From the NCBI GenBank assembly GCA_016234495.1, contig JACRBI010000044.1:1-64000 (forward strand): 64,000 bases of DNA, written 5' to 3'. Numbering within the stretch: the stretch's first letter is position 1; each line of letters begins with the position of its first letter. Both the position numbers and the translations under genes were made by a program. This DNA is from Chloroflexota bacterium (GTDB lineage: Bacteria > Chloroflexota > Anaerolineae > Anaerolineales > Villigracilaceae). This document shows, piece after piece, positions 9,394 through 43,249 of the stretch. The notes below the pieces were generated by a model, which saw nothing but the letters and a program-made list of their open reading frames with translations, ran no database searches and was not told the DNA's origin.

Positions 9394-10206
9394 TTATTCA
9401 CCGCGCAGGAATTTCTCAAAAGCACTTAATGACACTCGCGCTGTCATATCCAAATTCAGGGGAGTGACCGCAATCATTTTCTTTTTTCGTAAAACATAAA
9501 CATCCGTATCTTCGTCTTTATCCTCAAGTGATGCGGATTCTTTATAAGTGATTACGCCAGGCTCCTCCCACGAGTCACGTTTGGCGGGGACGGGTTCGTA
9601 ATATCGCAGATGCGAGAGTCTCGTCGTTTGCCACCCAGTTGTCGGCGTGGCATGACTCGGCACTTCCACTTTGATCAAATCCACCCCGTCTGAAAATTTC
9701 TTTTCAAGAATCAGCCGCGCAAAATAGGCGGTGAAATATCCAGCGGTTGAAAAATCAATATCTTCGGAATGCGACAAATGATATTGCGTTTCTGTTTGAA
9801 GCGAAATCGCCAGCGATAAAATTCCCATGGCCGCGCCTTCCATTGCCGCGCCGACAGTACCCGAGATGGTAATTCCCAACCCGACATTTTCACCGTAATT
9901 AATTCCTGAAACGATCAGATCGGGTTTATGCGGGACGATCTCCAAAACGCCGTGCAGGACGGATTGAGCGGGTGAGCCGCCCACCGCATAAACGGTCCAT
10001 GCCTGACCGTTGACCTGCACCTGTTCCTTGCGAATGGTCCCATCTGACGTGCTGGGCAAGCTGCGTCCCATGCCCGAAGATTGTTCGCGCGGCGCAGCGA
10101 CAGTGACGTACCCGATCTTTGAGAGTTCACTCGCCGCAGCCCAAAGTCCGGGCGAACGGATGCCGTCATCGTTTGTTAGAAGAATGTGGGGCTTTATTTT
10201 TTTCAT
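9394..10206 (-). CDS. surE: 5'/3'-nucleotidase SurE
   Basis: 270 aa. Metal-binding ILLTNDDGI at the N-terminus, PREQSSGMG, and SGINYGENVG mark the SurE family, which dephosphorylates nucleoside monophosphates. A TATAAT box at 10213-10218 (minus strand) ends only 6 nt before the ATG and no Shine-Dalgarno is present, which suggests a leaderless mRNA. Convergent with dnaK. Confidence 0.94.
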   Translation of the reverse strand: MKKIKPHILLTNDDGIRSPGLWAAASELSKIGYVTVAAPREQSSGMGRSLPSTSDGTIRKEQVQVNGQAWTVYAVGGSPAQSVLHGVLEIVPHKPDLIVSGINYGENVGLGITISGTVGAAMEGAAMGILSLAISLQTETQYHLSHSEDIDFSTAGYFTAYFARLILEKKFSDGVDLIKVEVPSHATPTTGWQTTRLSHLRYYEPVPAKRDSWEEPGVITYKESASLEDKDEDTDVYVLRKKKMIAVTPLNLDMTARVSLSAFEKFLRGE

Positions 10207-10225: not shown

Positions 10226-10270
10226 TGCTCCCGGCAGGACTCGAATACCATCCCTCGATGGGGCGTGAGA
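10226..10270. repeat. Isolated copy of tRNA-3'-end repeat
   Basis: A 45-bp stretch nearly identical to part of the 89-bp tandem unit at 10414 (shared CTCCCGGCAGGACTCGAAT and CCCTCGATGGGGCGTG). On the minus strand it contains the T-arm and acceptor 3' strand of the tRNA-Arg gene at 10633. Confidence 0.8.
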
Positions 10271-10284
10271 GATTGTTTCTTATA

Positions 10285-10370
10285 GGCTTTTTCACCACAG
10301 AGACCACAAAGGTCACGGAAAAAACCTTTAAAAAACTCTGTGGACTCCGTGCTCTCCGTAGTTAATGCTC
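10285..10370. repeat. Interspersed 'CCACAGAG' palindromic repeat
   Basis: CACCACAGAGACCACAAAGG and, 30 bp on, CTCTGTGGACTCCGTGCTCTC form a loose inverted repeat. Variants of the same word pattern lie at 30286-30325 and 63450-63525. Similar elements are widespread between genes in many environmental bacteria (known pattern). No gene is seen here. Confidence 0.6.
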
Positions 10371-10413
10371 TTGTTTGTGCGTTATTTGTACTTATGAAAC
10401 GCTTTCTGAGCCT

Positions 10414-10653
10414 GTAAATGCAAAACCGCCTTTCGATATGAAAGACGGCTTTTGTGCTCCCGGCAGGACTCGAATATTATCCCTCGATGGGGCGTGCGAC
10501 CAGTAAATGCAAAACCGCCTTTCGATATGAAAGACGGCTTTTGTGCTCCCGGCAGGACTCGAATACCATCCCTCGATGGGGCGTGCGACCAGTAAATGCA
10601 AAACCGCCTTTCGATATGAAAGACGGCTTTTGTGCTCCCGGCAGGACTCGAAC
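10414..10653. repeat. 89-bp tandem array carrying tRNA 3' end plus terminator
   Basis: Two full 89-bp units (10414-10502, 10503-10591) and a partial third that runs into the tRNA-Arg gene. Each unit has a minus-strand terminator hairpin (GCCGTCTTTC / GAAAGGCGG then TTTT) and, upstream of it, a copy of the last ~22 nt of the tRNA followed by unrelated sequence (ATCCCTCGATGGGGCGTG). Only the rightmost copy is joined to a complete tRNA. Short ORFs across this array are artefacts of the repeat. Confidence 0.88.
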
Positions 10654-10706
10654 CTGCGACCTATTGCTCCGCAAGCAAGCGCTCTAATCCACTGAGCTAC
10701 GGAAGC
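10633..10706 (-). tRNA. tRNA-Arg (anticodon GCG)
   Basis: 74-nt cloverleaf: acceptor GCTTCCG/CGGGAGC, D stem GCTC/GAGC, T stem GCAGG/CCTGC with TTCGAGT loop. The anticodon loop reads TTGCGGA, giving GCG (Arg CGC). The outermost anticodon-stem pair is a C-U mismatch and G34 is less usual than A34 for this box, so the anticodon call is slightly less certain than the gene. CCA is not encoded. A terminator hairpin follows in the adjacent tandem array. Confidence 0.88.
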
Positions 10707-14530: not shown

Positions 14531-14793
14531 GTGAGAATGCGATGACCAAGACGAGTAAGTGAGATTGTTCTGACAGAGAGAAGAAGCCGAGGTTGAGAGC
14601 ATCTTCCAGAAACAGTCACTGAAAACCCCTTGAGAGCATGGAACAGAACAGTGATCAGTAAAGAGCGATCAGCTAGTATGTGAAACGGATGGCTCCGTTA
14701 TCGGCTTAAGAGATGAGTTGTGTTTGGCTCAAATCGGGTGGAACCACGTGAGGTAAAACTCTCGTCCCGTTGTGGATGGGAGTTTTTTGTTTT
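14531..14793 (+). ncRNA. T-box leader controlling thrS
   Basis: A canonical T-box lies at 14731-14748 (TCGGGTGGAACCACG), just before a terminator hairpin with T6 (about 14757-14790). Upstream, the start of stem I shows the GATGACC...AGACGAGTA pattern. Uncharged tRNA should pair with the specifier and with the T-box bulge to prevent termination. A threonine codon ACT at 14618-14620, followed by GAAAACC, is a candidate specifier; ACC at 14625 is an alternative. The downstream threonyl-tRNA synthetase makes the regulatory logic consistent. Confidence 0.9.
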
Positions 14794-34053: not shown

Positions 34054-34202
34054 TGGTATTTCTCCGCCACCATATCAATGCCGTGTTGAAAAATTACATA
34101 TGTGCTTTAGGAAGATTGCACATTAAAGGTCAACTTGCTTTATACCAAGATGTGGTTATTAAAGTATAAAAAGTCAGTCGCGCATTGAAATGTTGATAAA
34201 TT

Positions 34203-34237
34203 GTGGGCCCGGCAGGATTCGAACCTGCGACCAAGGA
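34203..34237. repeat. attL: displaced 3' end of tRNA-Met
   Basis: 35 bp matching the 3' end of the tRNA-Met gene at 43177 with two differences. On the minus strand the T stem is GCAGG/CCTGC here and ACAGG/CCTGT in the intact gene. The two changes form one compensatory base pair. The fragment has no acceptor 5' strand, so it is the original host 3' end pushed away by integration. Confidence 0.9.
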
Positions 34238-34307
34238 CATTTAGCCTTTATTTCTGTTTGGTACTGTTTTCAATTTTCTTTCAAGCTCTTTTGGGGCTTG
34301 TTTTTTA

Positions 34308-34508
34308 TTACCGTTTTCGTTTGGGTAATGCCCCGATTATCAATACTAGGATTACGACAGGCCAAAGGTTCAGGCCGCTATACAATTGTTCTATGCCTGA
34401 AAAGAGTGATAGTGCGTCTGGATAAAATATTTTTGTGAAGATTAGCATACCTCCAAATATAAAAGCCATTAGTGTGATGTTGTAAAGAAATTTTTTCAGG
34501 TAGTTCAT
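34308..34508 (-). CDS. Small two-TM phage protein next to repressor
   Basis: 66 aa with two hydrophobic helices and a basic end (PKRKR). It starts 3 nt after the repressor stop, so it is co-expressed in the lysogen. A superinfection-exclusion-type role is plausible from position only. Confidence 0.65.
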   Translation of the reverse strand: MNYLKKFLYNITLMAFIFGGMLIFTKIFYPDALSLFSGIEQLYSGLNLWPVVILVLIIGALPKRKR

Positions 34509-34511
34509 TTT

Positions 34512-34862
34512 TTATTTTCCCTTTTTTCTTTCCTCTTGAATTTTTAGGCATAGGCGCAAATGTCTTATTGCGTTTTTTCTTTCTTCAATTTCTAATCGTT
34601 CAAGGATATATGCGCCTTCTTTCGTTAGTGCGTCCATTTCAAGTTCTTGTGTCATTAGTCCAGCTTCTCTGAAAACTACATCTGTTGGAATTCCTAGAGC
34701 CTTTGCAATTGCTGACAGTGTTTTACCTTCCGCTCCTCTTGTGCCTGATAGGATGCGTGAAATTTGCCCAGTGCTAATCTTGCTTTTTCTGGCAAGTTCG
34801 CTTTGGGTCATTTTTTGTTCTTCCAGTTTTTTCAACAACCAACTACTAAAGTTATTTTCCAT
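34512..34862 (-). CDS. XRE-family phage repressor
   Basis: 116 aa. The helix-turn-helix spans about 18-45 (MTQSELARKSKISTGQISRI), and the rest is a charged helical tail (EERKNAIRHLRLCLKIQEERK). It is transcribed away from the structural genes, and the shared gap 34863-34985 holds palindromic CTGTCA/TGACAG sites over a promoter. This is the layout of a lysogeny switch. Confidence 0.9.
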   Translation of the reverse strand: MENNFSSWLLKKLEEQKMTQSELARKSKISTGQISRILSGTRGAEGKTLSAIAKALGIPTDVVFREAGLMTQELEMDALTKEGAYILERLEIEERKNAIRHLRLCLKIQEERKKGK

Positions 34863-34912
34863 GTCTCATCTTATCTTTATGTGTTCTGTCTTTGGGAATT
34901 TAGATTTGCCAC

Positions 34913-34961
34913 TTGACAGAATTTTACATCTTCGTTTAAAATTCATTCTGTCAACTGACAG
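34913..34961 (+). promoter_or_regulatory. Provirus early promoter with palindromic operators
   Basis: TTGACA (34913-34918) and TAAAAT (34937-34942) form a good sigma-70 promoter with an 18-nt spacer. TTGACAGAAT at 34913 is the exact inverse of ATTCTGTCAA at 34945. CTGTCAACTGACAG (34948-34961) is itself a palindrome. The repressor probably binds these sites and blocks the promoter. Another GTTCTGTC half site lies near 34882. Confidence 0.7.
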
Positions 34962-34985
34962 TAAAATTTTCCAAAAGGAATAAAT

Positions 34986-35165
34986 ATGTCTGACAAAAGG
35001 GCTTCAAAAATGTATCAATCTTTGACAGATTACTTTCAGTCTTTGAAATGGTTTCAGTGGTTATTAATCAACGGTCAACTGTCAGTTTTGTATCCTTATT
35101 ATTACGATTTTGAAGAACGTTTTTTGAATGCTCGTCTTGATTGGGTCACTATGGGGGTGCTGTAA
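34986..35165 (+). CDS. Small phage early protein
   Basis: 59 aa, starting ATG after AAAAGGAA, directly behind the operator region. Aromatic-rich (WFQWLL, YPYYYDF), no TM helix certain, no recognised family. Its stop overlaps the next start as TAATG, so the two are translationally coupled. Confidence 0.65.
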   Translation: MSDKRASKMYQSLTDYFQSLKWFQWLLINGQLSVLYPYYYDFEERFLNARLDWVTMGVL

Positions 35166-35413
35166 TGCGGAAAATTTCTCAACCTGTTTTATTGTCTACT
35201 CGTTTTTATCCTAAAAGTGTTGGTGTGCTTTATCAGGATGAAACTAAAAAGGGGACACGAATTCGAGTTTATTTGTCGGGTAAGTTGCTTGGCGGGGTGA
35301 TTTTCAAAAATGAAAATGAAACTTGTTATTACTTTGCAATGATGCGTTTATCTCGCAAGATAAAAAGACCTATTCAATATATGGTTTGTTTTTATCCTGT
35401 TTTGCCTATGTAA
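35165..35413 (+). CDS. Small basic phage protein
   Basis: 82 aa from the ATG at 35165 that overlaps the previous stop; an in-frame TTG 24 nt earlier is less likely. Basic, beta-rich (TRIRVYLSGKLLGGVIF). Not recognised; may be a replication or ssDNA-binding accessory protein judging by position. Confidence 0.6.
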   Translation: MRKISQPVLLSTRFYPKSVGVLYQDETKKGTRIRVYLSGKLLGGVIFKNENETCYYFAMMRLSRKIKRPIQYMVCFYPVLPM

Positions 35414-35495
35414 TTTGCGGAATGTCTCCGCTTACGGCTCTCGCGTGCTTGGGCGATGGGTCACAAAAAAACAAGCAAAAAGGATTTTATATCTC

Positions 35496-35735
35496 ATGGC
35501 AACAATTTCATTCAAAGGTATTTGCTCAGGCACGAACGAAAAGGTTTCAACCAAGAAGGGCACGAAGTACAAAATTACGTCCTTCGTTGAAATTCCATCC
35601 CTGAACAAATTCGAAGTGTTTGGTGACCTGGGTCTTTCCCCTCATGATGATCCTCGGGAATACACGTTTGAGGCTGGCATTGTCGGCTTGTCGAATGTGG
35701 TCGTCAAACAAGCATCACCTGCTAAGAAATCATAG
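35496..35735 (+). CDS. Probable phage ssDNA-binding protein
   Basis: 79 aa from the ATG at 35496 (AAAGGA upstream); the frame is open from 35415 but that part has no ribosome site. Size, beta-rich pattern (KYKITSFVEI, KFEVFGDLGL) and position just before the coat genes match the gpV-type ssDNA-binding proteins of filamentous phages. Codon use is GC-rich and optimised like the coat genes, fitting a highly expressed protein. Family match is inferred, not shown. Confidence 0.55.
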   Translation: MATISFKGICSGTNEKVSTKKGTKYKITSFVEIPSLNKFEVFGDLGLSPHDDPREYTFEAGIVGLSNVVVKQASPAKKS

Positions 35736-35782
35736 GCTGTGCACGGCCTCGATAATCTATAAAAAAAAGGAGGTGAAATTCT

Positions 35783-35932
35783 GTGGCCGCTTTTACAACT
35801 CTGATTACTGACGTTTTGGGCGTTTCCCTGACCATCGGTACAACGACCTTGACCCTCGGCGGGATCGCTCTCGGCGTGACCATCCTCGGCGCTGGTGTTG
35901 GCTTCTTCCGCAAGCTCGGCGGGCGTCGCTAA
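35783..35932 (+). CDS. Major coat protein, copy 1
   Basis: 49 aa with GTG start behind a perfect AGGAGGTG site. A short acidic/polar N-terminus (FTTLITDVLG), a long Thr/Gly-rich hydrophobic helix (LTLGGIALGV...GVGFF) and a basic end (KLGGRR) give the pVIII topology, without a cleaved signal as in Pf1-like phages. Codon use is clearly more GC-rich than the flanking phage genes, as expected for a massively made protein. Copy 2 follows. Confidence 0.82.
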   Translation: MAAFTTLITDVLGVSLTIGTTTLTLGGIALGVTILGAGVGFFRKLGGRR

Positions 35933-35950
35933 GTCGCTTCTGCTTTTTCT

Positions 35951-35974
35951 GCGGGAGGGGTAATTCCCTTCCGC
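35951..35974 (+). terminator. Hairpin between coat genes
   Basis: GCGGGAGGG and CCCTTCCGC form a stem with one G-U and a TAATT loop, followed by a moderately T-rich run. It may slow transcription or protect the 3' end of the coat mRNA. Confidence 0.6.
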
Positions 35975-36002
35975 AATTTCATATTTTTATGGAGTGTTTC
36001 GC

Positions 36003-36152
36003 ATGGCTGAATTTACAACCCTTATTACCGATGTCTTGGGCGTTTCCCTGACCATCGGTACAACGACCTTGACCCTCGGCGGGATCGCTCTCGGCGTGGC
36101 AATCCTTGGCGCTGGTGTTGGCTTCTTCCGTAGCCTTGGCGGTCGTCGGTAA
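36003..36152 (+). CDS. Major coat protein, copy 2
   Basis: 49 aa, differing from copy 1 in three residues (A2E, V-T to V-A, K to S). Positions 36036-36098 are identical to 35816-35878 over 63 nt, so duplication or gene conversion is recent. ATG start with GGAG about 10 nt before. Either one is a minor variant or both build the capsid. Confidence 0.82.
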   Translation: MAEFTTLITDVLGVSLTIGTTTLTLGGIALGVAILGAGVGFFRSLGGRR

Positions 36153-36170
36153 GTCGTTTGATTTGGATTT

Positions 36171-36202
36171 GAGGGATGGGATTATTCCATCCCTCATTTT
36201 TT
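36171..36202 (+). terminator. Terminator after coat genes
   Basis: Perfect 9-bp stem GAGGGATGG / CCATCCCTC, then ATTTTTTG. Filamentous phages typically have a strong terminator after the coat gene to set expression levels; its place here fits. Confidence 0.88.
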
Positions 36203-36211
36203 GAGGTGTGT

Positions 36212-36358
36212 ATGGTGCAAACTGTTCAAAGTCTAATAAGTGCATGGTCAATAGATTTTTATGCGGGATGGTCAATCATGGACATCTTTCGGGTGTCTTT
36301 GATTTTGACGGTTGTTGCAATTGTCATAACTTATTTTTTCGATTCGGCAAACAAATGA
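36212..36358 (+). CDS. Small one-TM phage protein (minor coat candidate)
   Basis: 48 aa from the ATG at 36212 (GAGGTG before it). One TM helix (VSLILTVVAIVITYFF) and a short tail. Overlaps the next gene by ATGA. Size and position match pVII/pIX-like end proteins. Confidence 0.65.
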   Translation: MVQTVQSLISAWSIDFYAGWSIMDIFRVSLILTVVAIVITYFFDSANK

Positions 36359-36546
36359 TAACTGTCTTTATTGCCCTCATTTTTTACATTGTCGATCCAA
36401 TGCTTGGAATTATCTTGGCTGTGGGGCTTCCTGCGCTTGTCGCTCTCGATAGCACAGGTGAATATAGTCATGCTTTAGGTGGCATCATGTTCGCTGTCGC
36501 TGTTTATTTTGTTCGCAAAGTTGGCTTTGATCAGGAGGAAGAATAA
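36355..36546 (+). CDS. Small two-TM phage protein
   Basis: 63 aa. Two hydrophobic segments (FIALIFYIVDPMLGIILAV and AVAVYFV) and an acidic end DQEEE. Overlaps neighbours at both ends (ATGA and TAATG). Probable virion or morphogenesis protein by position. Confidence 0.65.
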   Translation: MITVFIALIFYIVDPMLGIILAVGLPALVALDSTGEYSHALGGIMFAVAVYFVRKVGFDQEEE

Positions 36547-36659
36547 TGCAGGATGTTATCTTGGTTATGAATATGCTTGGTATTACTCCGTATGTTGTCG
36601 GGGTGATCGTTGCTTTCGGCGCAATTGCTCTTTATTTCGGTTTCATAAAGCGTTCATAA
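36546..36659 (+). CDS. Tiny one-TM phage protein (minor coat candidate)
   Basis: 37 aa, nearly all one helix (PYVVGVIVAFGAIALYFGF) with a basic end KRS. This is the size of pVII/pIX of Ff phages (about 32-33 aa). Starts within the previous stop. Confidence 0.65.
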   Translation: MQDVILVMNMLGITPYVVGVIVAFGAIALYFGFIKRS

Positions 36660-36660
36660 A

Positions 36661-37785
36661 ATGAAACCTGTAAAGTTATTTGCGTTTCTTGCTGTATCTT
36701 TCTTTGTGGGCTTTTCGTTCATTGCTCCCGCTTCTGTGTATGCGTATCAACTGGCTACCGCGACATTTATTCCCCCTTCGGCAACTCCCACATCAGCGAG
36801 TTATTCTTGTCCTGTGGGCACACCTGCGGGATGGGGAACATATACGCCTTCCCCGCTTTGGGAATTGACATGTGGGAATTGTTCTGTGGTTATGTCCCCT
36901 ACTGTTTCACCTTCTCCATCCGCCTTGCCTACTTGGTCATTGACTGGAACGCCTCCTGTTGGTTGTACGCCTTTTCCCTACAATGTAACTGGATTACCTC
37001 CGACTGGTTGCGAATATGCTCCAACTCAAACGCCTACTCCATTACCGACAAGCACGCCTTCGGCTTGTGGCGGTTTTACTGTCTCGTTTGTTAGTGTAAA
37101 TAATGTTTGGGGAAATGCGGCTGGATCTTTATCGTGTGTTCCCGAGGGTGAAAATTATCGTTGCACTGGCACTTTTACGGGTACGGATATGCACGACACT
37201 ACGGATTATCCGTTCACGTTTGTTTTGCGTTTTACTAATTACATGGGGATGTACATTATTGGTCATGAGGACATTTCGCTCGGTCAATATGGCTTATTCC
37301 CTAATCGTGATATTCAAGTGACGGGGAATAATCAATTTGGGGGATGGATGAACCCTTTGAATGGCTGGTCTTGGAGTGGAAATCAAAATAATTATGATAT
37401 GAGTTTTGGCATCGGTACGGGTGGGGTGTCGGGTACTCCCCAGTTGGTTACCGTTGATTTATTGTTTGCTCGGTCTGCGGCGTGTTCAATTCTTCCAACT
37501 CCGTCTCCTATTCCTACTGTTATGCCTGATACGGGGTATTGTTCTTCCGTAGCTCCCACTATTGACGAATTTGGTTTCGATCTTTTCGTTGCCGATGGAG
37601 CTCCTAATTGCAATATGGGGTGGAATGAATTCGTAGTAGGTGCTTATACCGTTCCCGCTGTTCAAATTTGTTTGCAACCTTCCCAATTTGGAGTTATTCG
37701 CTTGTTTGGTGGTGATTACGAGGTGGGAATTTATGCATTAGCGGCGGCCGCGGCTTTCCTCTGGCGTTTTCTACGGACTGTATAA
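36661..37785 (+). CDS. pIII-like adsorption protein
   Basis: 374 aa. A cleavable signal peptide (about 1-28, ending VYAYQ), Thr/Pro-rich linkers with paired cysteines, a beta-rich central domain and a C-terminal helix (YEVGIYALAAAAAFLWRFLR) that would anchor it until release. This matches pIII minor coat proteins, which bind the host receptor and end the virion. The Pro/Thr-rich linkers resemble those of the host's own lipoproteins. No domain hit claimed. Confidence 0.75.
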   Translation: MKPVKLFAFLAVSFFVGFSFIAPASVYAYQLATATFIPPSATPTSASYSCPVGTPAGWGTYTPSPLWELTCGNCSVVMSPTVSPSPSALPTWSLTGTPPVGCTPFPYNVTGLPPTGCEYAPTQTPTPLPTSTPSACGGFTVSFVSVNNVWGNAAGSLSCVPEGENYRCTGTFTGTDMHDTTDYPFTFVLRFTNYMGMYIIGHEDISLGQYGLFPNRDIQVTGNNQFGGWMNPLNGWSWSGNQNNYDMSFGIGTGGVSGTPQLVTVDLLFARSAACSILPTPSPIPTVMPDTGYCSSVAPTIDEFGFDLFVADGAPNCNMGWNEFVVGAYTVPAVQICLQPSQFGVIRLFGGDYEVGIYALAAAAAFLWRFLRTV

Positions 37786-37797
37786 AAAGGAGTTCAA

Positions 37798-37902
37798 ATG
37801 TTTTCAATAACGATACCTGTTCCAACTGTATTTATATATATTGCCGCTGTGCTCGTTGTTATTCTGATCGCTAAATTCATCATTGGTTGGATAGTCGGAT
37901 GA
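37798..37902 (+). CDS. Tiny one-TM phage protein (pVI-position)
   Basis: 34 aa behind AAGGAG. One TM helix with a Lys near its end. It lies between the adhesin and Zot genes, where pVI is found in Ff phages, but is much shorter than pVI (about 112 aa). It overlaps the Zot start as ATGA. Confidence 0.6.
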   Translation: MFSITIPVPTVFIYIAAVLVVILIAKFIIGWIVG

Positions 37903-38540
37903 TCCTCGGTTCGCGGCTTTTTGAAGAATTGGATCAAGAGCGAATTGTTTGCATTACAGGCTCTTTGTCAGGTGGTAAAACGCGCCTTGCTTTCGACTTG
38001 GCTCTTTTCTATTGGCGGCGTGGGTATCGTCTTTTTTCAAATGTGCCTCATAACTTTGAGAATTGGACAAAGAACGAAAGTTATGACCTTTTCAAAAGTT
38101 TTGTCATTATCGATGAGGGTGGCGAGTACGTCCGTCAATCAAAGGTTGCAAGTTCAATAACTCGCTCGGCTGGTAAGGCAAACTATTATGCAATTTTCGC
38201 GGGTAAACGCCTCCCGCACAAAAATTTACAGGACATTGTTATAAGACCGCGATTTGATTTTTATCAGAATTACGGCATACCCCTGATTTTATGGCGTGCG
38301 GTGGTCAATGCAGATGAAAAATATAAGTTTGTTTTCTTTCAAGCGTTCCCTCAGCTTGTACATGGCACTTATTCAACGCTTACATCGTCGGGGGGTATCG
38401 AGGACGTTTTCGCTCGTGCGGAACGTACTGTACAAATCCTTGCTGAAATGGAAGGTCAAACTGCTGGCGAACAAGCCGAAGCGGGATACACGGGACTTGC
38501 GGACGACCTCTCCGAAGCGTTTGGACAAAGTCTATCCTAA
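37899..38540 (+). CDS. zot: Zot/pI-like assembly ATPase (cytosolic part)
   Basis: 213 aa from the ATG at 37899. Walker A is GSLSGGKT (residues 21-28) and Walker B FVIIDEGGEY; RPRFDFYQNYGIPLIL follows as in Zot proteins. It powers virion extrusion through the membrane. Family members continue into a TM helix and outer domain, but this frame stops at SLS. The missing basic-TM part is encoded right after, in the +1 frame (next entry), so this is either a two-protein version or needs frameshifting. Confidence 0.9.
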   Translation: MILGSRLFEELDQERIVCITGSLSGGKTRLAFDLALFYWRRGYRLFSNVPHNFENWTKNESYDLFKSFVIIDEGGEYVRQSKVASSITRSAGKANYYAIFAGKRLPHKNLQDIVIRPRFDFYQNYGIPLILWRAVVNADEKYKFVFFQAFPQLVHGTYSTLTSSGGIEDVFARAERTVQILAEMEGQTAGEQAEAGYTGLADDLSEAFGQSLS

Positions 38541-39264
38541 GAGGACTTACAAAGGCCGTGACAGAATTTCTCTTGTTCCTCGATGGGTTGCAAACTGGAT
38601 TGTTACGTCTGCCGTTATCTACTTCATGGGGTCGTATATTCTCCGTTTTGCTGGCGTTGATACTGCTGGTTTCGACCCATTCGCGAGGGCTTCATCTTCT
38701 GCGGTGGCTACAGCTACCCCATTACCAAATTATCCGATTAATGACCAGGGTTCCTTTCATGCTTCGTCAAATCCTCAGGATAATTTATTCGCTGATACTC
38801 CTGCTCCTTCTGATGCTGGTGGCGTGGCTGGTGTACAACCGATGACCCAACCGACTTATACACCTTTTCCAACTCTTACACCTTATCCCACTCAACAACC
38901 TTATTTTGGGAGGTTGATTGCGATAGGTTATTCGTATTACTGGCCTCCGTTTGGACCGCCGAATTGCTCGGCTGAGAATTGGCACTCAGATATAAATTTT
39001 TGTGACGATATGACGGCTAGCGGTTTGCAATGGTCTTTGTATGTTGGTCATGGTGTTGCTGTGCCTGTTCAATGGCGAAATGATATTCCACTTGGTTCTA
39101 CTATTCGGGTGCATTCTCCCAAGGAAATGATCGGGGATTATCTCGTCTTGGATTTTTGCGGCGATTGCATCAAACCTGAGGGGCATATTTATTTTGATTT
39201 TCTTGATAATCGCGCTCGTCTCAATTGGACTGTTCCCATGTTGGTGGAGGTAATAAAACCATGA
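38521..39264 (+). CDS. TM protein with 3D-like (double-psi barrel) domain
   Basis: 247 aa if started at the TTG at 38521; the frame is open from 38296 inside zot. Basic segment (KRTYKGRDR), TM helix (NWIVTSAVIYFMGSYIL), Pro/Thr linker, then a C-terminal domain with MTASG, IPLGSTIRV, and YLVLDFCGDC...HIYFDF, the three-aspartate pattern of 3D domains seen in peptidoglycan-lytic and cell-wall proteins. It could be the outer part of pI, the wall-opening factor for exit, or both. No good ribosome site precedes any start. Confidence 0.7.
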   Translation: MDKVYPKRTYKGRDRISLVPRWVANWIVTSAVIYFMGSYILRFAGVDTAGFDPFARASSSAVATATPLPNYPINDQGSFHASSNPQDNLFADTPAPSDAGGVAGVQPMTQPTYTPFPTLTPYPTQQPYFGRLIAIGYSYYWPPFGPPNCSAENWHSDINFCDDMTASGLQWSLYVGHGVAVPVQWRNDIPLGSTIRVHSPKEMIGDYLVLDFCGDCIKPEGHIYFDFLDNRARLNWTVPMLVEVIKP

Positions 39265-39578
39265 CAATCTATAGACCATCTGCCTCTAATCGTCGTCGTG
39301 AAATTTATTGGGATGAAATGTCTCAATCAGATTTGGAATTTATCTATCCGTTGTTGGTGGCTCATAACTCTGCTTACACGGAGGAAGCACTACTCGAAAT
39401 ATCAAACAGGATGGCGTCTGGTCAATGGGATTTTCCTCCTCTCCCCTGTCAATATGATTATGCGGATTGGGTTGTATCCCTTCTTAGTTTGCCTAAAAAA
39501 TTGGTCAATTTTGTACGTTATGGGGTGGGGGAGTGGTTTAGATCGTATTTTCTGCCATTCCTGTTTGGCGGTCGTTAG
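39261..39578 (+). CDS. Phage protein of unknown function
   Basis: 105 aa; ATG overlaps the preceding stop. Acidic N-terminal half (YWDEMSQSDLEFIYPLL, TEEALLEISNRM) and an amphipathic C-terminal helix (KKLVNFVRYGVGEWFRSYFLPFLFGG) that may sit on the membrane. Not recognised. Confidence 0.6.
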   Translation: MTIYRPSASNRRREIYWDEMSQSDLEFIYPLLVAHNSAYTEEALLEISNRMASGQWDFPPLPCQYDYADWVVSLLSLPKKLVNFVRYGVGEWFRSYFLPFLFGGR

Positions 39579-39596
39579 TGTTGATCGAGGTTTTCA

Positions 39597-40184
39597 ATGC
39601 CTGTAATGCTTGATTTGTTTTCTGGTCTTTGTGGTGCTTCCTCCGCTTTTCGTGATGCTGGCTGGACTGTTTACACTGCCGACATCAATCCTGAATTCAA
39701 TCCTGATTTTTGTGTTGACCTGGCAAACTGGTCTTTTCCGTTTGAGCTGAGCGTTGATTTGGTATGGGCTTCCCCTCCTTGTACCTATTTTAGTCGTTAC
39801 ATTCAGCGTGGTGTTTTCAAGAATGAGCCTCTGCCAGATATGACTTTATACAATGCCTCTTGTAGGATCATTCAAGAGTTACAACCTAAATATTATTGTA
39901 TTGAGAATGTGCGCGGGGCTGTTCCTTTTTTTGGACGTGGCTACCGTTCTTATGGTTCTTTCTTCCTCTGGGGCAACTTTCCTGACCTGGCTGTCAATAA
40001 TTCAAAGTTTCATTTTGTGAAGTCTCACGTTACATCAGGACATAAACGGCGCGTAGCTGAACGGGGTTTGATTCCTCGCGGTTTGAGCCAGGCTTTATTG
40101 GATGCGGTTTCTTTCCATCGTTTTTTATTTGAGCTGCCTCCAATAAAATTTGAGCGTTCGCTGAGCTGGGCGCGTCCAAAGTAG
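39597..40184 (+). CDS. Orphan DNA (cytosine-5) methyltransferase
   Basis: 195 aa. Motif I is LDLFSGLCGASSAFRDAGW, motif IV ASPPCTYFSR with the catalytic Cys62, motif VI IENVRG. The target-recognition region and motifs IX/X are largely missing, so it is short (typical C5 enzymes exceed 300 aa). SGHKRRVAERG may stand for motif VIII. No restriction enzyme is adjacent. It may protect phage DNA from host restriction or mark the origin. Activity is unproven. Confidence 0.85.
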   Translation: MPVMLDLFSGLCGASSAFRDAGWTVYTADINPEFNPDFCVDLANWSFPFELSVDLVWASPPCTYFSRYIQRGVFKNEPLPDMTLYNASCRIIQELQPKYYCIENVRGAVPFFGRGYRSYGSFFLWGNFPDLAVNNSKFHFVKSHVTSGHKRRVAERGLIPRGLSQALLDAVSFHRFLFELPPIKFERSLSWARPK

Positions 40185-40216
40185 CCGCGCGGGGGTTGCC
40201 CCCTCGGGGTGCGCGG
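40185..40216. repeat. GC-rich hairpin in phage intergenic region
   Basis: CCGCGC and GCGCGG enclose GGGGGTTGCCCCC and CGGGG, giving a stable stem in otherwise AT-rich phage sequence. Possibly a signal for complementary-strand synthesis or packaging. Confidence 0.6.
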
Positions 40217-40282
40217 CGTTTGATCGCGCGGATGCTCTTGTCTATTGGTCATATTTGAAAAAATGGTTTTGGAAAATTGGAA

Positions 40283-40347
40283 AGTGCAGTAAAGAGGTAA
40301 GCGTTATGGATTTGGCGAAGATGTCGGAGTGCTGGCTTTACTGCACT
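40283..40347. promoter_or_regulatory. Candidate double-strand origin: 12-bp inverted repeat before rep
   Basis: AGTGCAGTAAAG at 40283 is the exact inverse of CTTTACTGCACT at 40336, with 41 nt between, 26 bp upstream of rep. Rolling-circle origins often have such an extruded stem next to the initiator gene. A 21-codon ORF between them (ATG at 40306) is probably chance. Confidence 0.55.
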
Positions 40348-40372
40348 ACTCAGTTTTTGAAAGGTAATTAAA

Positions 40373-41278
40373 TTGGATCAGCCTCATATTATTCGATTTG
40401 CTGAACGTGGTAGTCTTATGGAGTTTTCTCCGAGGTTTTCACTTACTCATCAGGTTAAGCGGACTTGGCGGCGTGGTGAAATTTCTGCGTTTTCTGTTCG
40501 TTCCCGTAGTCGTTTAAATCGTAAGATTTCCATGATTACGCATAATTCTTTACCTTTGTTTGTCACTCTTACTTATCATTTGGAAATTCCTCAAAATTTT
40601 GAGGGGTATAAATATCATCTTCATCATTTCTTTATTCGTCTTTTACAGAAGTTTCCTAAGGCTGGCATTATTTGGAAGTTGGAGTATCAGTGGCGGGGCT
40701 ATGCTCATTTTCATTTGTTCGTTTGGAATGTTTCCGAGGATGATCTAAAAGCATTTGTTCCTCGTGTTTGGAATGAGATTGCTGGTTATGGTTCTGAAGA
40801 TCATCTAAAATGGCACCAAGGGCTTTTAGGAAATGGGAATGAGCATTGTGTTCAGTCTATTCGCTCTTGGAATGGGGTTAAATCGTATGCGTCAAAGTAT
40901 TTTGCAAAAATTGAAAATGATAAGGTTGGTGGTCGTGTTTGGGGAATACGTGGAAGTCATCGGGAAATAGTCGGGCAAAAAGAGAACGGGAAACCTATTT
41001 ATAAACACGTGTCGAATGTTCCTTTTTCCAAGTTGTTGGAATTTCGGTGCTCCTTGGCTGTTGCGTTGCAATTTCGTCAGGCTGTCATGCGTCAATTGAA
41101 TTTTGATTTTCAGCGTTTGGGTTTTTGGTGTGCGAATTATGAAGTAGATTGGCTTTTATTTTTAGATGAAATTTGGAATGCTGAATATGTTAGTTATCAT
41201 CCTCCTGATGATCCTCCTGATTGGGAGATGGGTATTGATATACCTGAAATTGAAGATTGTTTTGAATTATGCAATTAG
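40373..41278 (+). CDS. HUH rolling-circle replication initiator
   Basis: 301 aa with TTG start at 40373 behind AAAGGT; ATG at 40418 is an alternative. Motif 1 is LPLFVTLTYH, motif 2 the metal-binding HUH in AHFHLFVW, and motif 3 has the Tyr-Lys pair in KSYASKYFAK. It nicks the phage origin and stays on the 5' end during replication. One catalytic-type Tyr pair region only. Overlaps the next gene by 10 nt. Confidence 0.9.
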   Translation: MDQPHIIRFAERGSLMEFSPRFSLTHQVKRTWRRGEISAFSVRSRSRLNRKISMITHNSLPLFVTLTYHLEIPQNFEGYKYHLHHFFIRLLQKFPKAGIIWKLEYQWRGYAHFHLFVWNVSEDDLKAFVPRVWNEIAGYGSEDHLKWHQGLLGNGNEHCVQSIRSWNGVKSYASKYFAKIENDKVGGRVWGIRGSHREIVGQKENGKPIYKHVSNVPFSKLLEFRCSLAVALQFRQAVMRQLNFDFQRLGFWCANYEVDWLLFLDEIWNAEYVSYHPPDDPPDWEMGIDIPEIEDCFELCN

Positions 41279-41652
41279 CTGGCCGTCTCAATGGCGCTCA
41301 GCGTATGCGGCTTGGCAGGCTTCTAAACATGCTTTACAAGCCTTCTGAATTGGCGGATGAAATAGGTTTTACAGTTCGGCAAATTTATCGGGTTTATGTT
41401 CCTTGTGGTTGTCCTGTGGTTCGTGATCGTGGTCGGGTTTGGATAAATGGCAAGGCATTTGCTGAATGGTATGAGGTCAGTTATCCAAAGCAAGCACTTT
41501 TAGAAGATGAAGCTTTCTGTCTGACTTGTAAAAAGGCTGTGAAGATGGCGGAACCTGAAAAAAAGAAAAAAGGTAGGCTGTCTTATTGGGTCTGCAAGTG
41601 TCTCGCTTGTGGTCGTAAAATTTCAAGAATTATTGATTTGGAAAGGTTGTGA
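41269..41652 (+). CDS. HTH plus zinc-ribbon phage protein
   Basis: 127 aa. N-terminal MerR/excisionase-like helix-turn-helix (SELADEIGFTVRQIYRVYV, then GRVWINGKAFAEWY) and a C-terminal four-Cys zinc site (CLTCKK...CKCLACGRK). The HTH resembles small DNA-bending directionality factors, so it may assist the integrase or regulate late genes. Overlaps the rep end. Confidence 0.7.
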   Translation: MQLAGRLNGAQRMRLGRLLNMLYKPSELADEIGFTVRQIYRVYVPCGCPVVRDRGRVWINGKAFAEWYEVSYPKQALLEDEAFCLTCKKAVKMAEPEKKKKGRLSYWVCKCLACGRKISRIIDLERL

Positions 41653-41654
41653 GA

Positions 41655-41759
41655 ATGAAAAAGAAGAAAGATTTCAAGGATGTTTTTTTAGAACTTCTTG
41701 GTCTTATGTGGTTATTGCTTTGGGTATGTAAGTTTTGGACTATAAATGATAAATCGTGA
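41655..41759 (+). CDS. Tiny one-TM phage protein
   Basis: 34 aa: basic start MKKKKDF then one helix (LELLGLMWLLLWVCKF). It begins 2 nt after the previous stop and overlaps the integrase start by 14 nt. Coding is plausible but only from position. Confidence 0.45.
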   Translation: MKKKKDFKDVFLELLGLMWLLLWVCKFWTINDKS

Positions 41760-42699
41760 AAATTGGAAAGCAGTAAATCAGTACCTAAAATATCGGCGGG
41801 AAGTTGATCTACTTTCTTCGTCCTCGGTGCGTCTTGAAAAGACCTGGCTTCGTCATCTTCTTGAATGGGCTGATAGTGTTGGGTTTGCGCAAGTCTCTAG
41901 AGTTCGTCCGTCATTTCCTCAGCAGCTTCTTTCTTTGTCGCTTTCTCCTATTTACACAACTCACATAATACGGGCTTCTTATCGTTTCTTCTCTTGGCTT
42001 GTAAAACATCAGCGGGGGTATTCCTCGATTTCGGCGGCTTGGATGGACACTCTCAAAGTTCGGGGGATGGTTATTGAGCATCGAGAGCATGAAGCGGTTA
42101 CCATCGAGGAAATTCGGGCTATTTCCTGCGCTCCTGTTCAAACTATCAGAGATAGGCGAATTCGTGCGTCTGCGGTGTTCTGGTGGCTTTCTGGAATACG
42201 TGTCGGGGCGTTTGTCACCTTGCCAGTTTCAGCCGTTGACCTTGACTTGCTCACGGTTCGCCAGTGGCCGAAGTTGGGCGTCAAAACGAAGTTCAAAAAA
42301 CATGCGACTACATTTCTACTTGATATTCCTGATTTGATTGAAGTTGTCAAAGATTGGGATAAAGAAGTGAGGGCTGCGCGTTCGGTTTTTTGGTTTGCTT
42401 CTTGCGATCCTGAAACGGGACTGATTGATCCAGTAGTTAGAACGGTTGGAGTTCATCGCAATATTCGAGCGGGTAAGGATTTGCGGGATTGGCTCGGGCG
42501 GGTTGGTCTGCCTTATCACTCCCCGCATAAGTTCCGACATGGGCACGCTGTTTATGCTTTGAAACAAGCGAAGGACATTCCAGCACTAAAGGCAATTTCA
42601 CAAAACTTGATGCATTCGAATTTATCTACAACGGACGGGGTCTATGGGATTCTCTCGGACATGGACGTAAAGAAACAAATTCAATCGTTAGGTAAATGA
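41746..42699 (+). CDS. int: Tyrosine recombinase integrase
   Basis: 317 aa. N-terminal SAM-like core-binding domain (1-105), then the catalytic domain with Arg in SGIRVGAFVTLP, HxxR in SPHKFRHGHAVYA, His in LMHSNLSTTDGVY and Tyr nucleophile in that last motif. Integrates the phage at tRNA-Met. It lies at the tRNA-proximal end of the element, the usual arrangement. Inoviruses more often use host XerCD or DDE transposases, so an own integrase is notable. Confidence 0.94.
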   Translation: MINRENWKAVNQYLKYRREVDLLSSSSVRLEKTWLRHLLEWADSVGFAQVSRVRPSFPQQLLSLSLSPIYTTHIIRASYRFFSWLVKHQRGYSSISAAWMDTLKVRGMVIEHREHEAVTIEEIRAISCAPVQTIRDRRIRASAVFWWLSGIRVGAFVTLPVSAVDLDLLTVRQWPKLGVKTKFKKHATTFLLDIPDLIEVVKDWDKEVRAARSVFWFASCDPETGLIDPVVRTVGVHRNIRAGKDLRDWLGRVGLPYHSPHKFRHGHAVYALKQAKDIPALKAISQNLMHSNLSTTDGVYGILSDMDVKKQIQSLGK

Positions 42700-43175
42700 T
42701 TGGGTTTTAGAAAATCCATGGGCGTCGTCCGCGAAGCGTGGTTTTGTCGATGTTACGGGTCGGTTTAGTTGTCCTTGTCCGCCACAAAAACTACCAGTTC
42801 ACTAATGATGCTTGTAATCTATGCTGGCAAGTCAAGCGGGGCGGCGGCGCAATCATGGAGACAAATTGTCTCAATTCCCCCCTTAATGTTGTACCCTGTG
42901 CCCCGTTGCCGAATGCCTATGAGCGGTGTGGAGAATTTCTCAGGGTCGGCAGTGAAAATCCCCTGTCGGGTGGAGTGTAGATAACTCTCCTGAGCGGTGT
43001 GGAGAATTCTAAAGTGTAGGGTTTTGAATTTGTTTTTGAATTTGGTTCTGGGTCACCCGTGACTGGCGGGGGGGTGACCCGTTTCTGCACGGGTTGAGTT
43101 GGGGGAGCGCCAACTCAGTGCGTTCTTGAATTTGATTTTGACTTGGCACGAAATGACATTAAAAAACGGTCAATA
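42700..43175. other. Provirus intergenic region with clustered repeats
   Basis: 476 bp without convincing gene. It holds an 18-bp direct repeat (see next entry), a 9-bp inverted repeat GGGTCACCC (43050) / GGGTGACCC (43072), and TGAGTTGG (43095) / CCAACTCA (43110). In the circular phage genome this region joins attP. Stem-loop clusters of this sort hold the minus-strand origin and packaging signal in filamentous phages. Short ORFs here are not supported. Confidence 0.6.
42920..43008. repeat. 18-bp direct repeat pair in phage intergenic region
   Basis: TGAGCGGTGTGGAGAATT occurs at 42920-42937 and 42991-43008, 71 bp apart. Both copies sit on the integrase side of the hairpin cluster. May be integrase arm sites or iteron-like sites. 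Confidence 0.7.
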
Positions 43176-43210
43176 GTGGGCCCGACAGGATTCGAACCTG
43201 TGACCAAGGA
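43176..43210. repeat. attR within tRNA-Met 3' end
   Basis: Same 35 bp as attL with two differences. It forms the T arm and acceptor 3' strand of the functional tRNA. The phage thus supplies a replacement 3' end. Confidence 0.9.
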
Positions 43211-43249
43211 ATTATGAGTTCCCTGCGCTAACCGCTGCGCCACGGGCCC
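43177..43249 (-). tRNA. tRNA-Met (anticodon CAT), provirus integration site
   Basis: 73-nt cloverleaf: acceptor GGGCCCG/CGGGCCC, D stem GCGC/GCGC, anticodon arm GGGAA-CTCATAA-TTCCT, T stem ACAGG/CCTGT. CAT could be elongator Met, or Ile2 after lysidine change; the missing initiator GGG/CCC anticodon stem excludes initiator tRNA. Its 3' half comes from the provirus. CCA not encoded. Confidence 0.93.

Follow-up and report, generated by a model that had tools for sequence, protein, structure and literature searches.

The repeat array behind a tRNA-Arg gene of a Chloroflexota bacterium belongs to a repeat family that is widespread, and apparently undescribed, in one environmental order of bacteria, which we infer to be the Anaerolineales. 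The array lies in the window, the whole 64,000-nt stretch of contig JACRBI010000044.1 (assembly GCA_016234495.1) analysed here. Members of the family share the arrangement P-Q-D-(P'-S-Q'-D)n, in which P-Q is the end of an RNA gene and D the DNA behind it. In each repeated unit, P' is an approximately 11-nt copy of P, Q' repeats the tail of the RNA gene, and S is a net insertion of 16–19 bp (counted by eye) made of a C-run, a loop of 2–6 nt and a G-run.

Repeat mapping, TRF and shuffle controls bore out the 89-bp array at tRNA-Arg that a sequence-only reading had proposed. TRF reported a period of 89, 2.7 copies and a 98% match; direct repeats occupy 10411–10499 and 10500–10588, with a partial copy at 10589–10652 and a 45-nt copy at 10226–10270, and the 42-nt core occurs three times in the window against 0.00 expected from shuffles. 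Read on the tRNA strand, the locus runs tRNA-Arg(GCG)-D-(P'-S-Q'-D)-(P'-S-Q'-D)-(143-bp dispersed repeat)-S-Q'-surE (Table 1). What had been taken for an isolated copy is thus a true copy but not a separate one: it is unit 3 of the array, split off by a repeat (10268–10410) whose core has 33 further matches across the genome. Insertions of the dispersed-repeat type also lie within arrays of three other genomes (G003, G032 and G052, by eye). Because the copies differ by SNPs and arrays in other genomes sit on contigs longer than 1 Mb (G016, G020, G217, G357), a short-read assembly artefact, which had been named as a possible refutation, is unlikely. A T-box leader (RF00230) lies elsewhere in the window, at 14533–14772.

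Table 1. Features of the tRNA-Arg array and of the probable integrative element at tRNA-Met, in window coordinates
Feature	Position	Strand	Basis
tRNA-Arg(GCG), intact, parent gene of the array	10632..10706	-	ARAGORN, Rfam RF00005
D1, DNA 3' of tRNA-Arg, terminator-like hairpin	10592..10632	-	sequence; identical copies 10503-10543, 10414-10454
P' of unit 1 (GGTCGCACG), near-copy of tRNA just 5' of T-loop, recurrent GG→CG	10582..10590	-	sequence
S insert of unit 1 (CCCCATCGAGGGAT + GGTA)	10564..10581	-	sequence
Q' of unit 1, copy of tRNA-Arg last 20 nt	10544..10563	-	sequence
D of unit 1	10503..10543	-	sequence
P' of unit 2	10493..10501	-	sequence
S insert of unit 2 (CCCCATCGAGGGAT + AATA)	10475..10492	-	sequence
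Q' of unit 2	10455..10474	-	sequence
D of unit 2	10414..10454	-	sequence
MITE-like dispersed repeat, 143 bp, inserted in P' of unit 3	10268..10410	.	33 other genomic matches; ends set by eye
S insert of unit 3 ("isolated copy")	10246..10263	-	sequence
Q' of unit 3; array ends after it	10226..10245	-	sequence
surE, next gene, marker of the orthologous locus	9394..10206	-	PF01975, E 3.4e-46
Integrase-like protein, 317 aa	41746-42699		sub-threshold match
HUH Rep-like protein	40373-41278		above threshold
DNA methylase-like protein	39597-40184		above threshold
nSTAND3-like protein	37887-38540		sub-threshold match

A conserved insert defines the units. The sequence-only reading derived the copies from the 3' end of the tRNA, correctly, since each unit has the last 20 nt of tRNA-Arg (TTCGAGTCCTGCCGGGAGCA), accompanied by a near-copy of the ~11 nt preceding the T-loop. 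It overlooked the defining part: the conserved 18-nt non-tRNA insert S, again a C-run, loop and G-run, which separates P' from Q' and in the window reads CCCCATCGAGGGAT plus four nucleotides. The terminator-like hairpin of D is plain in the sequence, yet it is absent from the list produced by a consensus terminator scan. A retro-copy of mature tRNA was rejected as the source of the units, since the copies continue past the tRNA end into D and carry no added CCA.

Units follow their own RNA gene closely and with a sharp edge. When one drawn member of each other kind of RNA gene competed with the local gene, the local gene was the sole best match for Q' in 34 of 42 first units, shared first place in 5 and lost in 3. 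A nine-nucleotide P' matches its parent at seven or more places in 76% of cases against 2.2% in shuffles. With an offset of 0–2 nt chosen per array and 2 of 83 arrays skipped for weak match, the mismatch between P' and parent drops from 0.86 at position 12 before the T-loop to 0.15 at position 11 and is low further in. This drop marks P' as an 11-nt piece and places S at the junction of P and T-loop. Within P', mismatch peaks at 0.32 at the second-last position, where GG→CG occurs in 20 and GG→TG in 4 of the 81 arrays. Among species of one genus the T-stem and acceptor of tRNA-Arg and tRNA-Met differ, and the array copies change to match (L123–L172).

Copy number and split point vary around this design. 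Spacing between strict units is 55–114 bp in 84 of 86 cases, the others being 178 bp (G258) and 229 bp (the window, with its inserted repeat); a tRNA-Met array in G028 has 53-bp spacing. More than one strict unit is present in 43 of 100 arrays collected among the matches listed, and G357 holds six S at 62-bp spacing in near-identical units. Slippage, which the earlier reading had suggested, or unequal exchange probably sets copy number. At some genes the split falls elsewhere: S stands before the T-stem at tRNA-His, at the anticodon-stem/variable region at tRNA-Val(TAC) and inside the T-loop at tRNA-Pro and tRNA-Val(CAC), and the off-pattern genes include two tRNA-Pro and two tRNA-Val. Besides the common S, two loci, L096 (G234, tRNA-Gly) and L165 (G031, tRNA-Arg), contain units with different inserts, CCCCCTAAGGGGGCGTG and CCCACAAGGGGACGATG.

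The same design recurs within the window's genome and throughout its order. A second array lies at tRNA-Ser(GGA), divided between two contigs, and a third, with a variant S, at tRNA-Lys(TTT); in all three, tail, D and P' come from the local tRNA, and the 14-nt S core is identical between Arg and Ser. Templating of S from elsewhere in the genome was rejected, as a search with the 16-nt window S allowing two mismatches found just one two-mismatch site; later searches brought up a 13-nt match that has no RNA gene (L193) and the array with the variant S. A scan of GTDB representatives returned 17 stretches, 16 labelled Anaerolineales, Anaerolineae, Anaerolineaceae, Anaerolinea or Chloroflexi/Chloroflexota and one, from Fibrella, judged chance. 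CCCATCGAGGGAY occurs at 76 places in 26 of 57 genus genomes, against one place in one genome for the reversed control; 6 of 15 newly read loci with this sequence had no RNA gene and were taken as chance. Exact CCCCATCGAGGGATR is present in 25 of 400 order genomes (control 0).

An S-independent search led to a broader definition of the insert. Two T-loops 52–81 nt apart were found in 67 of 301 phylum genomes, most of them neighbouring tRNAs by eye, and the search recovered arrays with other S loops in G072 and G120, on which we based a generalised S (C-run, loop, G-run, A-Y-N-N-Y-ATTCG). Of 400 order genomes, 84 contain this pattern, spread over 27 of 130 genera, and 0 contain the reversed pattern; in a phylum sample it occurs in 14 of 21 order genomes versus 1 of 230 others. 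In G109, G128, G134 and G652 we also saw T-loop-like repeats resembling neither neighbouring tRNAs nor S arrays, G652 holding two copies 80 nt apart.

S occurs overwhelmingly in arrays at RNA-gene tails. For the first S type, 82 of 92 occurrences in fetched loci belong to such arrays: 64 follow a same-strand tRNA at a distance of up to 700 nt, 3 are assigned to rnpB and 15 to pieces of arrays at a contig end or a tRNA half, the remaining 10 being judged chance. Exact matches without an RNA gene that were judged chance are L086, L097, L098, L099, L193 (a 13-nt match), L195, L202, L206, L215 and L217. The 100 arrays collected with the generalised pattern come from part of the matches listed and are not a random sample; 83 of them have a complete tRNA 12–249 nt upstream, where only upstream tRNAs on the same strand were counted. 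The other 17 comprise 10 fragments at contig edges, 2 arrays that follow tRNAs split by an integrase (L093, L355), 1 at tmRNA, 1 chance match (L086) and 3 others (L268, L272, L364). Among the matches listed in both sets, arrays occur at 22 kinds of RNA gene: 20 tRNA anticodon types, tmRNA and rnpB. The last two are the sole extent to which the array proved unrelated to tRNA, an outcome that the sequence-only reading had named as evidence against itself. Array and flanks are alike at two tRNA-Asn genes 56 kb apart on one contig (L312 and L313; G331:C6:52100-53300 and 108400-109500), which are either a duplication or the ends of an element.

Comparison of orthologous loci revealed that tail copies and S occur together. 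A tail copy within 330 nt was allowed to differ at no more than 5 of 19 positions, and S at no more than 3 of 14; the search for tail copies did not use S. At tRNA-Arg, 16 of 49 genus genomes have a tail copy, all 16 with S, and 33 have neither. At tRNA-Met, 4 of 32 loci have both, 27 have neither and one has a five-mismatch "copy" without S, which we take as chance; it is the only exception among 21 tail copies, 20 of which have S. No tail copy was found at 32 tRNA-Gly loci, where the S near 4 goes with the tRNA-Met behind. In a quickly built surE tree with 41 rows, which left out 9 of 50 loci (8 lacked surE in the stretch and 1 lacked a complete tRNA), the 14 occupied rows require at least 10 state changes, to be read as "many" rather than ten because a single gene tree can mislead through exchange. 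Loci L163 and L164 form a clean occupied/empty pair at one site, compatible with loss or gain. The earlier expectation that tail copies come and go at the tRNA is borne out by these occupied and empty sites.

The sequence-only reading proposed that the array may be the scar of satellite integration: ordinary tRNA-targeting integrative elements would have lost their cargo, and slippage would have followed. We consider this very unlikely. Its alternative, a decoy for integrases, is possible. The 3' ends of tRNA, tmRNA and other RNA genes are classic integration sites, which speaks for such scars, as do integrase genes directly behind tRNA-Arg in G006 and G035 (PF00589; in G044 by eye only) and an S array bordering phage genes. 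The latter is on viral contig IMGVR_UViG_3300005259_000061 (L367), where positions 1–140 hold two S units, followed by terminase, endolysin, portal and head genes; another match in the viral scan (L092) was rejected as chance. Yet the 12–249 nt between a complete tRNA and the first S in 83 of the 100 arrays leave no room for cargo, the edge of P' is sharp at 11 nt, and one S design serves 22 kinds of RNA gene.

Probable integrative elements also end in plain tRNA copies. Within the window, 34201–43249 is a probable ~9-kb integrative element at tRNA-Met (Table 1), bounded by a plain tail copy at 34201–34240 without S (other end 43176); this copy differs from the window's tRNA-Met at two paired T-stem positions, which makes it a probable, not a proven, far end. 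In G006 the probable far end of the tRNA-Arg integrase element, on another contig, is likewise a plain repeat, and we rejected that element as an S-ended one. S is thus missing from the copies that probably end elements, yet present in 20 of 21 tail copies, which counts against the cargo-loss scar.

Neutral processes alone are quite unlikely to have produced the family. Slippage duplications at highly expressed RNA genes, with S arising by templated polymerase error (a snap-back between C-run and G-run), would need no S-specific enzyme, and they fit the hairpin-like form of S with its C and G runs, the local origin of the units and their fluid copy number. Two families, one represented by G357 and G331 and the other by the window's genus, share an identical 14-nt S, however, which repeated error would hardly yield, any more than the constant AY-NNYA-TTCG join; the near-restriction to one order is a further point against it.

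Selection for a functional nucleic-acid element is possible but on the doubtful side. The S hairpin would be bound by protein or act in read-through RNA, for example by insulating stable RNA genes or blocking integrases, with the tail copies as its frame and slippage multiplying the units. S retains its C-run and G-run while its loops change; the runs belong to the S search pattern, and the loops do not. A purine as first and an A as last loop nucleotide are a feature of stable mini-hairpins, and 24 of 34 distinct loops have both versus 9.9 in within-loop shuffles, a test whose p-value is optimistic because the loop variants are related. In L133 and L145, S is intact although Q' has three mismatches to its tRNA, and the GG→CG or GG→TG changes in P' of 24 of 81 arrays weaken the T-stem. 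Against such a function, the element is missing at the same gene in many close relatives (33 of 49 tRNA-Arg loci), and many units lie behind a terminator-like hairpin and may be untranscribed.

Folding tests add weak or no support for a functional element. Four whole P'-S-Q' units folded no better than shuffles, two whole units gave z of −0.95 and −1.66, three short S pieces with strong stems −1.07 to −1.88, and the window's S 0.07, no better than shuffles. Rfam, at the gathering and E-value levels, gave no match covering a unit above the gathering score; only the tRNA itself reaches that score in the locus. With no unit match in Rfam and these folding results, we rejected a structured RNA. 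An S hairpin is still likely, if unproven.

We tentatively favour site-specific recombination at RNA-gene tails as the maker of the cassettes, with unequal exchange multiplying them afterwards. An arm of the RNA gene would serve as the recombination core, with 11 bp of P, the 7-bp T-loop and 11 bp on the right side. Tyrosine recombinase cores have this 11 + 7 + 11 geometry, and the start of S coincides with the arm/overlap border of the T-arm core, where a tyrosine recombinase would cut. Such an enzyme would recognise S on the cassette side, and recombination of P|Q with S|Q would insert or remove a cassette. The RNA gene would stay whole, as the cassette would bring an identical tail, and copy number would then shift mainly via slippage or unequal exchange. 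This geometry and the gene-preserving logic place recombination first among the explanations.

Several observations sit uneasily with the recombination model. A double-stranded DNA circle of 53–114 bp would be very stiff; a P' beside S is unexpected for an ordinary attP; and the differing split points at tRNA-His, tRNA-Val and tRNA-Pro are not explained by a fixed cut at the T-loop. Occupied/empty pairs fit deletion through recombination between Q copies no less than they fit insertion. No recombinase was tied to S, and no responsible enzyme was found in this analysis. PF00589 genes run directly up to the 3' half of a tRNA, which an S array closely follows, at tRNA-Lys in L176 (G016) and L355 (G297) and at tRNA-Met in L177 (G331), but these junctions look like anticodon-loop rather than T-loop sites, and the integrases are therefore not obviously the agents.

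None of the loci examined could be established as a cargo-bearing element that ends in S. S stands without an RNA gene upstream in L268/L326 and L272/L327, on short contigs, and L364 may be a chimera or a deletion. L326 (G348) has S near 2635 and L327 (G213) near 2038, the latter flanked by a DUF4411 and IrrE-like pair on one side and an HNH endonuclease on the other. A more specific version of recombination, which we regard as somewhat improbable, is an order-specific system that acts on a small hairpin, possibly in single-stranded DNA, and installs cassettes downstream of stable RNA genes; tRNA-targeting integrases, which are many, may then find landing pads or traps in the split P'-S-Q' sites.

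S arrays resemble several known systems in part. For att duplications, integrons, REP/BIME, MITEs and CRISPR, the comparison draws on their generally known traits. Duplications made at tRNA genes by tyrosine integrases likewise copy the tRNA tail downstream and keep the tRNA whole; unlike S arrays, they have no S and no separate P', and an integrase and cargo lie between the copies. Integron cassette arrays also consist of tandem units, each with a hairpin-like site, whereas S arrays hold no cassette genes and their units copy the tail of a local RNA gene; the cassette-gene criterion alone sets the two apart. REP/BIME and MITEs are short non-coding repeats with palindromes, as S arrays are, but S sits at RNA-gene tails with flanks templated by the neighbouring RNA gene and is not dispersed independently of RNA genes. 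CRISPR shares direct repeats, a near-constant period and a fixed anchor; S-array units, by contrast, are near-identical within an array, with no variable spacers.

The nearest published case comes from Dehalococcoides, also a member of the Chloroflexota. In the parts of the published account drawn on here, tandem direct repeats of ssrA, 20 bp long and plain, bound genomic islands with cargo, and sixteen islands have an integration module with a serine recombinase (PMC3146451). As there described, those repeats resemble S arrays in that the 3' end of a stable RNA gene is repeated downstream, several times in a row, and differ in that S-array units are 53–114 bp long, lack cargo and each contain the S insert and P'. 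Searches of an open-licence library gave no description of the S sequence or of tRNA-tail arrays. S arrays lack a tested hallmark of tRNA att scars, of REP/MITE and of CRISPR; of two integron hallmarks, they lack the one that was tested. We therefore rate the family as a new kind.

A strict grammar of local RNA tail, 11-nt copy and hairpin-like insert, found in about one-fifth of sampled order genomes, points to a process, not known before, that writes DNA next to the genes for tRNA, tmRNA and RNase P RNA. S arrays may also explain why several of the assemblies studied break behind tRNA genes, the window's own among them. Since tRNA and tmRNA genes are favoured by phages and genomic islands, the process could bear on the competition between cells and mobile elements.
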